IMG/VR virus record: IMGVR_UViG_3300034072_002211
Span: 213,445 to 277,444 of that record
Strand: one strand, 5' to 3'
From: a virus
DNA: 64,000 nt
How positions within the stretch are numbered: position 1 is the first letter of the stretch; every line of letters begins with the position of its first letter. Under the pieces are notes generated by a model. The model was not told the DNA's origin. It made no database searches and worked only from the letters and a program-made list of their open reading frames with translations. Position numbers and translations under genes: made by a program. Below, piece after piece: positions 40,190 through 50,933 of this stretch.

Positions 40190-40268
40190 TGGTGGCCGTT
40201 GTGGGGCTCGAACCCACAACTCTCAGGGGTTTAGAATCCCCGGCTCTGCCAGCTTGAGCTAAACGGCC
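40190..40268 (-). tRNA. tRNA with probable CUA (amber) anticodon
   Basis: Acceptor GGCCGTT/AACGGCC, D-arm GCTC...GAGC, T-arm GTGGG/CCCAC, encoded CCA. Anticodon stem GGGG/CCCC with 31A-39C mismatch; the 7-nt loop TTCTAAA reads CUA. The same A31-C39 mismatch occurs in the Ser(CGA) and Thr(CGU) tRNAs here. A register shift would give UCU (Arg) but with two mismatches. Own promoter at 40277-40305. Confidence 0.7.
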
Positions 40269-48576: not shown

Positions 48577-48656
48577 AGTAATCTCCTATTCTAGTAATCC
48601 CGTAGGACACCAGAGTTTAACAGAATAGGAGACTGTGGGTCAGTATTCATGGCGAA

Positions 48657-48682
48657 ACCCAGACCGTTTCTGGTCTGGGTCT
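48657..48682 (-). terminator. terminator of the 48.7-49.96 kb RNA
   Basis: 9-bp stem ACCCAGACC / GGTCTGGGT followed by TTCG; the 3' boundary of the structured RNA. Confidence 0.65.
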
Positions 48683-49962
48683 CATAATGTGGTCACCCTG
48701 AGAATGTCGGGTGACCGTCCCGGTCTCTGCGGATTATTCCCTGGATCCTACTCCAGGTATTCCCGCTCACTCCATCACCCTTGCGGGTGTAACCGGTCGT
48801 GCCGCCGTTTTTAACGTCAGGCAGTAGACGTGTCACCATATGCTTTTCGACAGTTTCCACCACACCTGCCTTCGGGGCAGTTAAGGCTTGCGGGCCCTAT
48901 ATGGCTTTCTCTATCAACAACGTCTGGATTGGGTACCAGCTCGCCGCCCTAGTTAGCTTGCGCCCCAGGGATTAGGCACTTTCGAGGTTTCCCTCATACA
49001 CATGGCCGAGTCAGGCTTTCCGTTTTTGACAGCAATGTCCAATATGCTATTACCTGCTAGGAGGTAACCCAGAGAGAAGTGCTGACTCAGTAGTTCCAAG
49101 GCCTTTTGAACCTCAGAATGCTACACTCCTCGTATCGTTCGGCTTGCGGGCCTACTAAATCGGTTTACAGGACTTGTCTGGCTTTTTACACCAACCAAAC
49201 CCTTTGACCTGCCATGAGCCCTAGGCGCGACCCTCGGACAACATGACTACCTCTTGCCACTCGATAGTAAACCTGTTTGAGTAGAGGACGCTGGGGTTAC
49301 AAGGCCCCATTCACCGGCCGCTCGTCGCCACCGGGATTATCGTGCTTTCGCACGGCAGTCGTTCTCAGGTCGTCCTACCTACTGCCACTGCTCCTTGGGA
49401 GAGCTTGACAGTCCCTCTTTTGGAGGGCAGGTGAGGATGCGTGTATTGATCCGAACCGAAGCCCGGACGGCTGGGGATGGGTCCCTTCACCACTTACTTG
49501 GGTTACCCCAAGCTACCACCACACGCGGTAATCTCTTGAAACTTTCGAGTCTCCAACTTAACACCGAAGTGTTTCGCCGTCAACTAAAAAGTTTCCGATC
49601 GATCCCTCTGCGGCGCCACACTCCCCTCGACCAGCTATCTCTGCTTCACTTAGACTGAGGATCCTTTCGGAAACCCCAGGCCTTGTTCTGCTCCTGCTGA
49701 CCTTCGAGGTGTGTAGCACCGCGTTGGTCTCATCGTTCTATGTTCAACCAGTGTCTGCGTCAACAACAAAAATGCCATCCCGCAAACTTTTTTCTCCTCC
49801 AGGAGAAAACCAGGGTCCATAGACGTTTTGGGCCCCCAAGAGAGTTGAATCTCCTGGGGACCCATCGTGGGAGTTTCCTCCTACGTCCCTCTGCGTCTGC
49901 TCCGGTTCGAGTGTCTGGCTCACGAAGTCCAGCTGACCTTACCTTAGCGTCTGCGTTGGTTC
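48657..49962 (-). ncRNA. approximately 1.3-kb structured non-coding RNA
   Basis: No protein-like reading frames. A promoter at 49967-49996 reads in and a terminator hairpin ends it. On the minus strand many stems close on standard RNA tetraloops: CACCC-GCAA-GGGTG, GTGC-GAAA-GCAC, AACAC-UUCG-GTGTT, and a UUCG stem in TCCGGGCTTCGGTTCGGA. UAUGG/CCUAA-type segments suggest tertiary contacts. Size and its place upstream of phage tRNAs recall GOLLD/ROOL ornate RNAs, but no consensus comparison was possible. Confidence 0.65.
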
Positions 49963-49966
49963 ATAA

Positions 49967-49996
49967 CATCTAGCTTTGCGACCCACAGGACGTCAA
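49967..49996 (-). promoter_or_regulatory. promoter of the giant RNA
   Basis: TTGACG with 17-18 nt to CTAGAT/TAGATG, pointing into non-coding sequence. Confidence 0.6.
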
Positions 49997-50041
49997 CAAC
50001 CCTTTTTCAAAGAACTGTGGACAACTCTGTGAGAGATGCCA

Positions 50042-50069
50042 TGGGCCCGACACCGAAGTGCCGAGCCCA
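50042..50069 (-). terminator. UUCG hairpin, likely terminator or RNA end
   Basis: Stem TGGGCtCGGCAC / GTGCCGAGCCCA closed by cUUCGg on the minus strand, between the two RNA blocks. Confidence 0.55.
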
Positions 50070-50104
50070 CGAAATGTAATGTGCTTGCCTGTGAAAAACA
50101 AGCT

Positions 50105-50287
50105 TTACACTGGTGTGTTCACCGAGCCGAGATCAACAGAACGCTGAGGCGCTTGGCCAATGGAACCGTTGTCTTGTGTGGTAGTGGCAGGCGAAGCAAT
50201 GGCGCCGTTGTCGCCGAACAGGAATTTGAATGGTCGGAACAAAAGCTTGCCTTGACCGGACAGCTTGTGGAGCGAGAGTCTAATCAT
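50105..50287 (-). CDS. possible 60-residue protein
   Basis: MIRLSLHKLSGQGKLLFRPF... then a Thr/Asp/Gly-rich tail. Composition is protein-like but there is no ribosome-binding site, and it may be part of the structured RNA. Confidence 0.35.
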   Translation of the reverse strand: MIRLSLHKLSGQGKLLFRPFKFLFGDNGAIASPATTTQDNGSIGQAPQRSVDLGSVNTPV

Positions 50288-50830
50288 GCTACTATTTATG
50301 CTGATAGGTTTAGAGCTCCTGGAGCCGAAACCCCAGGAGCTCAACCAGTTGACCGAAGTCTCTTGGTATTAGAGTAGGTTTCCAGCATAGGTCCAAAGAC
50401 CACTAAGTTGGTTCCTTGCTCTAACGTCGGTTTAGGGGATAGCTAACCGAAATCAACTATCCCCAACCGACAACAAGCCGAAGCCTGCTGTGGTCTCTGT
50501 GCCAGTGTCTGGAGGTTAGCCGAAGCCACACCATCGCAGTCTTTACACAAAGCCGGTTCTGGGACCCTAGTAGGCCGAAGCTTTCCAGGGTCCCAACCGA
50601 GCAAACCGAAGTTTGCTGGCTTTTGTGTAGGGTTCTGCTGTTGCTATGATCGGGCCCGAAAGCCGTCTCAGGGAGTTCAGCAGTCCTTTCACAAAACTCG
50701 GGTTTAGACCAGCTGGGTGTTCATCCGAAGATTACTAGCGCCAGCTGGTCAACCGATGAAAACCGAAGTCTTCATGGTCTCGAAAGTGTTTTGCCGCTGA
50801 GAACAAAACCGAAGTTCTGCGTCATCATTA
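50288..50830 (-). ncRNA. four-module RNA with repeated cUUCGg hairpins
   Basis: The sequence CCGAA recurs about ten times; on the minus strand most copies are UUCG tetraloops. Four modules share one plan: a short UUCG hairpin, then CGGUU, a longer stem-loop (GGGACCCU/AGGGUCCC, GGGGAUAG/CUAUCCCC, GACCAGCUGG/CCAGCUGGUC, AGCUCCUGG/CCAGGAGCU), then AACCG. At least two modules are further closed by long-range pairing, e.g. CTACACAAAAGCC with GGCTTTGTGTAAAG and CAGAGACCAC with GTGGTCTTTG. Stem sequences differ while pairing is kept. Confidence 0.7.
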
Positions 50831-50933
50831 GCATCTGCGCTTCCGATGCTCGCTATGTATGTGACCCGTCCGTGCCGCGCAAGAACTTTTTACAGGACAA
50901 TTACGATTTTGTGTGAATAAGATTGTGGATAAC

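Follow-up and report, generated by a model that had tools for sequence, protein, structure and literature searches.

A conserved RNA of tandem folded units lies upstream of GOLLD in six phage records

Large phage RNAs and the setting of the locus

Cryo-EM has shown that GOLLD assembles into an RNA-only cage as a 14-mer; ROOL also forms an RNA-only cage, as an 8-mer, and the function of both is unknown (PMC12286853). Large long non-coding RNAs (lncRNAs) of phages can be very abundant during infection (PMC7567579), and phage K encodes two of them (PMC9241854). Here, a conserved folded RNA family is described, referred to as the unit RNA, which consists of three to four units in tandem, connected by linker stems that covary, and is present in six phage records. 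In all six, GOLLD follows directly downstream on the same strand, and the unit RNA is distinct from the conserved core of GOLLD.

Like GOLLD (RF02032), the unit RNA is large, ornate, phage-encoded, located near tRNA genes, and of unknown function. It differs from GOLLD in lacking a covariance-model match, and each of the two RNAs has its own promoter-like boxes; moreover, GOLLD has not been described as being built of tandem equivalent units. ROOL, another large ornate RNA, is found in phages and prophages, often near tRNAs. However, neither ROOL nor GOLLD matched the unit RNA (50288–50848) in Rfam scans up to E = 5, and the same was true for the homologue in record L041. Sponge RNAs of the CsrB/RsmZ type also carry multiple copies of one hairpin site per RNA, with a copy number that varies between relatives. 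CsrB-type sites carry GGA in their hairpin loops. In contrast, this motif is absent from the hairpin 1 loops of all 20 units analyzed here, which with two exceptions are of the UUCG, UUAG, or GNRA type, and the conserved letters are located in the junction strands. The lncRNAs of phage K and ICP1 (PMC9241854, PMC7567579) are likewise large non-coding phage RNAs of unknown role; those RNAs are abundant and, unlike the unit RNA, have been characterized by transcription and location.

The analyzed stretch of DNA (the window, 64,000 nt) forms the final 64 kb of a virus record with a length of 277,444 bases, a 277-kb jumbo phage. It contains 21 predicted tRNAs and encodes seryl- and lysyl-tRNA synthetases, an NAD synthase, a PRPP synthetase, and a DNA methylase. 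Single-protein searches placed Rhizobium and Sinorhizobium phages among the nearest annotated phages, which makes an alphaproteobacterial host plausible, albeit not demonstrated. A tRNA with a CUA anticodon, labeled tRNA-Pyl by ARAGORN, is located at 40190–40268 (minus strand) and is a possible amber suppressor; similar calls were obtained in two other records (L043 and L045).

The unit RNA, whose sense is that of the minus strand, lies in a gap of approximately 2.35 kb without convincing genes (48577–50933), flanked by minus-strand ORFs of 116 and 78 amino acids. The upstream 116-aa gene is linked to the unit RNA in five of the six phages. The predicted fold of its product (pLDDT 85) gave no informative structural match. 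A distant relative of this gene occurs in record L054, in which the unit RNA was not found. In L013 (6398–7183) and in the L041 homologue, a serine/glycine-rich protein with a C-terminal PEP-CTERM-like tail is encoded directly upstream of the unit RNA, and a similar tail was seen upstream of the unit RNA in L046.

At gathering thresholds, Rfam detected only tRNAs in the window. The GOLLD RNA, which the preliminary description had missed, was recognized just below the gathering score of 150 bits, with a match of 143.7 bits (E 2e-39, 49133–48695, minus strand) covering all 416 positions. The matched part is the conserved 3' domain, and close homologues reach 149–171 bits. Directly after the window GOLLD follows a compensated hairpin, and homologous GOLLDs occur in several phages of 400–500 kb.

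Units, junction strands, and linkers

A purpose-written descriptor (GGTT, a perfect hairpin of at least 8 bp, 1–2 nt, and AACC) was applied to both strands of the window. Exactly four matches were obtained, all in the unit region and on the minus strand (Table 1), and only one match in total was found on both strands of 20 dinucleotide shuffles. The stretch with the four homologous units covers 50,306–50,848, with core-to-core distances of 156, 130, and 122 nt. Thus, the four homologous units spaced about 125–150 nt, which had been proposed from sequence alone, were confirmed, at spacings of 122–156 nt and on the minus strand. The fold z-score of the 551-nt region was −10.0 for the minus strand versus −5.3 for the plus strand.

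Table 1. Positions of the unit RNA, its parts, and the neighboring GOLLD RNA in the window
Feature	Positions	Strand	Evidence
Promoter-like boxes of the unit RNA: TTGCGC (50877–50882), 17 nt, TACATA (50854–50859)	50854–50882	−	Conserved in 6/6
5' domain with closing helix P0 (AUCGGAAG pairing with CUUUCGAG); probable RNA start near 50848	50776–50848	−	P0 with 7–9 canonical pairs
Unit M1: ACC, hairpin 1 (UUCG), GGUU, hairpin 2, UA, AACC	50700–50779	−	Descriptor, energies, hairpin 2 pairing
Linker domain L1: outer helix UUUUGUG/CACAAAA, inner helix CUGCUG/CAGCAG, conserved AACUCCCUG loop, UUCG hairpin	50618–50704	−	Covariation, model R1
Unit M2	50554–50621	−	Descriptor, energies, hairpin 2 pairing
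Linker domain L2, weakly homologous to L1; closing helix CUUUGUGU/GCACAGAG	50492–50558	−	R1 25.4 bits, E 0.0035–0.0037
Unit M3	50428–50495	−	Descriptor, energies, hairpin 2 pairing
Linker domain L3, closed by UUAGAG/CUCUAA	50369–50424	−	Kept closing helix
Unit M4	50306–50368	−	Descriptor, energies, hairpin 2 pairing
Probable 3' domain of the unit RNA transcript, with unresolved boundary	49770–50305	−	28-nt block, compensated hairpin
Promoter-like boxes of GOLLD: TTGACG (49758–49763), 17 nt, TAGAAC (49735–49740)	49735–49763	−	Conserved in 6/6
GOLLD RNA (context, not part of the unit RNA)	48654–49730	−	Rfam-matched 3' domain 48695–49133, conserved hairpin 48654–48683

The many perfect inverted repeats in the region would also fit a DNA-level element, such as replication or recombination hairpins, or repeats arising by chance. 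This explanation is all but excluded. The single descriptor match in the shuffled sequences rules out chance repeats, and a DNA element is contradicted by the tolerance of G-U pairs in the helices, the presence of UUCG loops on one strand only, the far stronger fold z-score of that one strand, and the conserved promoter-like boxes preceding the unit RNA.

Across 20 units from the six phages, the consensus is xCC – hairpin 1 – (U)GGUU – hairpin 2 – U(A) – AACC. The junction strands are near-invariant (5' ACC or GCC and GGUU in 20/20 units, AACC in 19/20), while the stems vary with full compensation. The first ten pairs of hairpin 2 are 100% canonical over the 20 units, versus a mean of 60% and a maximum of 78% when the 3' arms were swapped between units (5000 swaps). 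For the four units of the window, the corresponding values are 100% and 50%. These pairs were counted on anchored arms, because MAFFT misaligned hairpin 2 between units with short and long loops. The hairpin 1 loops are mainly UUCG, but UUAG and GNRA-type loops also occur, and neither of the two exceptions contains GGA. The figures for hairpin 1 rest on a parse in which M4 of the window was set wrongly; those for hairpin 2 are free of this error.

The GGUU strand can pair either with the 5' xCC, which extends hairpin 1, or with the 3' AACC, which extends hairpin 2, and the two options are mutually exclusive. According to nearest-neighbor energies, the two states differ by 0.2–2.7 kcal/mol in all 20 units, and in full-length ensembles the preferred side varies by unit. 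The dual pairing, and perhaps bistability, of GGUU is a prediction from these energies; one side may instead be single-stranded or engaged in tertiary contacts.

The linker helices form between the 3' flank of a unit and the 5' flank of the unit that follows. The outer L1 helix is replaced by UUUACC/GGUGAA in L046, and CUAUUG/CAGUAG occurs as a variant of the inner helix. In L1, 98.7% of cells pair and 5 of the 13 pairs change on both sides, a result reached in none of 500 shuffles; pairing was lost when the partner was slid by 1–3 columns. The closing helices of L2 and L3 are also kept among relatives (for L3, the L013 arm was entered without one bulged G). Helix P0 is formed in all six phages, with changes that are mostly one-sided. 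Because a covariance model of L1 (R1) gave weak matches on other linkers (E 8e-4 to 8e-3), the linkers may themselves be repeats, with L2 and L3 related only weakly to L1.

Several claims of the preliminary description can be judged from these data. Stems that differ in sequence and still pair were confirmed. The UUCG hairpin is typical but not essential, and the CGGUU/AACCG core proved to be three-sided, as the conservation of the ACC/GCC strand 5' of hairpin 1 equals that of the downstream AACC. The additional closing helices held only in part: a helix within M2 is present in the window, but it is not the conserved solution, and the comparison favors helices between units over the helices within units that the window alone had suggested. 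The 5' end of the originally proposed interval (50288–50830) was corrected, since the RNA probably starts near 50848; it may extend to approximately 49770. Covariation no better than random was checked for and is not the case, either for the linker (0/500 shuffles) or for hairpin 2 (at most 78% in 5000 swaps). The reading as a functional structured RNA of an unrecognized family is therefore supported by covariation, hairpin 2 pairing, and the lack of an Rfam match, with transcription being inferred. It should be considered that the covariation counts come from six related sequences and were not corrected for phylogeny.

Distribution of the unit RNA and its boundary with GOLLD

Besides the window, five other records (40–465 kb) contain the unit RNA. 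The numbers of scored units per phage are 4, 4, 4, 3, 3, and 2, with a third, degenerate unit in L046. The 116-aa gene led to the 462-kb record L013, which is colinear over the whole stretch: its units match at 76.5% over 179 nt (E 3e-26), and its GOLLD scores 171.1 bits. A GOLLD pattern led to six further GOLLD-bearing records, among which L041, L042, L044, and L046 carry the unit RNA. With model R1, all six phages were recovered (E 1.6e-13 to 2.2e-21), whereas the remaining 16 records searched, Sinorhizobium phage Phosso among them, yielded no significant match. The 20 strong matches of the unit model R2 are the training units, and all others were marginal. As both models were built from the same sequences, they show absence elsewhere and are not independent proof of homology.

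No Rfam 15 family reached its gathering score for the unit RNA, and sub-threshold matches were noise (e.g., microRNA models, E 1.4–4.5). Pattern and similarity scans of IMG/VR, INPHARED, and the GTDB-species collection revealed no further unit-RNA locus, and blastn of the whole stretch against INPHARED gave no match. When genomes from 84,980 bacterial and archaeal species were scanned with one pattern, two matches were returned, both of them false; a scan with a pattern containing GAAAGKGMCTAAT returned none. Since the scans of the collections relied on exact patterns, relatives that have diverged may have been missed. Several candidates were rejected: matches of the GAGACCAACGCGGTGC pattern beyond the L013 contig were unrelated, L048, L050, and the genome_contigs matches L055 and L056 were ruled out as coding or chance, and L068–L088 were mainly one repeated prophage sequence without units. 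The downstream 78-aa gene, used as a lead, gave eight loci, with a single record showing even a weak GOLLD. No paper describing the unit RNA was found in the literature searched.

The unit region was first favored as a 5' domain of GOLLD; this was dropped on the basis of the conserved promoter-like boxes and the intervening ORFs. In all six phages, the first unit domain is preceded by a TTG box, 17 nt, a TA-rich second box, and then ATCGGAAGCG, and the GOLLD core by a TTGA box, 17 nt, a TA-rich second box, and then AGACCAA, with a T-run upstream. The GOLLD boxes read TTGACG-N17-TATAAG in most phages. Because both box pairs fall below the scanner's strict E. coli sigma-70 consensus, their status as promoters is inferred from conservation alone. 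An ORF of 376–509 amino acids is located between the two RNAs in three of the six phages (L042, L044, and L046), and no ORF is present there in the remaining three. The intervening ORFs of L042 and L044 (376 and 395 amino acids) share a C-terminal T5orf172 domain (GIY-YIG-like) and have divergent N-terminal parts; the L046 ORF (2744–4273, minus strand) encodes a PAS-HisKA-HATPase-receiver hybrid kinase with a LOV-like GRNCRFLQ motif.

Since both RNAs have promoter-like boxes in all six phages and an unrelated ORF separates them in three, the unit RNA is probably not the 5' domain of GOLLD, with the reservation that transcript data are lacking. The rival view, a single GOLLD transcript of about 2.2 kb with an extended 5' domain, is supported by colinearity on the same strand, the absence of an ORF between the RNAs in three phages, and the failure to find an intrinsic terminator between them on the minus strand. 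Apart from the boxes directly before the GOLLD core and the intervening ORFs, it is opposed by Phosso, which has a complete GOLLD of about 0.9 kb (186.6 bits) without the unit RNA, and we regard it as unlikely. The 5' domain of the Phosso GOLLD aligns to approximately 49545–49134 of the window; the unit RNA lies further upstream. GOLLD without the unit RNA also occurs in G024 and G026.

Two further GOLLD loci deserve mention. In Phosso, a tRNA (L028 5109–5180) is situated inside the variable GOLLD linker, and neither the tRNA nor GOLLD is included in the annotation of that stretch. A 499-kb phage (L012, reverse strand; G001:C1:55034-55420) has a very divergent GOLLD-like match of 30.9 bits. 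The surrounding gene-poor stretch of approximately 1.7 kb contains several UUCG hairpins, and no match to it was obtained with either unit model.

The three phages without an intervening ORF share a near-invariant 28-nt block (49911–49938) and a hairpin (49830–49863) in which 13–15 bp are kept with changed sequence and full compensation. Neither was seen in the three phages with an ORF at this position. This structured gap region probably represents the 3' domain of the unit RNA.

Possible roles of the unit RNA

Because related giant phages keep the shape of the unit RNA while changing its letters, it probably works as an RNA, although this function is inferred. Transcription from its own promoter and action in trans are likewise inferred, without transcript data; action in trans is argued from the lack of a conserved downstream gene, which may be GOLLD, a T5orf172 ORF, or a sensor-kinase ORF. 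A cis-regulatory leader, in which riboswitch- or attenuator-like tandem units control the next gene, would agree with the ORF following the units in three phages and with the resemblance of tandem units with mutually exclusive helices to tandem-switch logic. However, the other phages have a different gene after the units or none at all, we saw neither a conserved terminator nor sequestration of a ribosome site in association with the units, and no Rfam riboswitch matched. This explanation is considered very unlikely.

Our leading proposal, which falls slightly short of even confidence and for which no partner has been identified, is a trans-acting and perhaps bistable multivalent platform of three to four equivalent sites, which is expressed next to GOLLD. 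In each unit (ACC – hairpin 1 – GGUU – hairpin 2 – UAAACC), the same docking site would be present once, so a single RNA may gather or titrate three to four copies of one partner, which could be a phage protein, a host protein, or a contact with GOLLD that is made repeatedly. The hairpins are read as interchangeable spacers because their sequence drifts while the stems are kept, and the near-invariant junction strands would be the recognition element. As GGUU can pair to either side, binding may fix one of two states that are almost equal in predicted energy. The differing unit number (4, 4, 4, 3, 3, and 2 plus one degenerate) fits a titrating array. Against the platform, the fold of the upstream 116-aa gene product resembles nothing informative, and a distant relative of this gene exists without the unit RNA.

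Alternatively, the units may drive an RNA-only assembly, by homo-oligomerization or co-assembly with GOLLD, with GGUU/AACC strands being swapped between molecules. This remains possible. It is favored by the position next to GOLLD in all six phages, the large, ornate, and phage-encoded nature of the RNA, the two equivalent partners of GGUU, which would permit easy intermolecular exchange, and the RNA-only cages formed by GOLLD and ROOL (PMC12286853). It is opposed by hairpin 1 loops that are mostly stable UUCG, UUAG, or GNRA loops rather than kissing-loop sequences, by single-chain tandem repeats unlike the described GOLLD and ROOL chains, and by the occurrence of GOLLD without the unit RNA (Phosso, G024, and G026).

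A bolder reading, which can only be put forward as a possibility, is that the unit RNA is another giant RNA belonging to the GOLLD world, whose units contain a three-strand exchange core (ACC/GGUU/AACC). If true, it would be a multi-state or self-assembling device that acts together with the GOLLD cage, or upon it, while a jumbo phage infects its host. Atomic structures of GOLLD and ROOL exist, their function is not known, and phage RNAs of this large, ornate kind can reach high abundance. With its countable equivalent units, an additional RNA in the GOLLD cassette that is conserved independently provides a tractable experimental handle.
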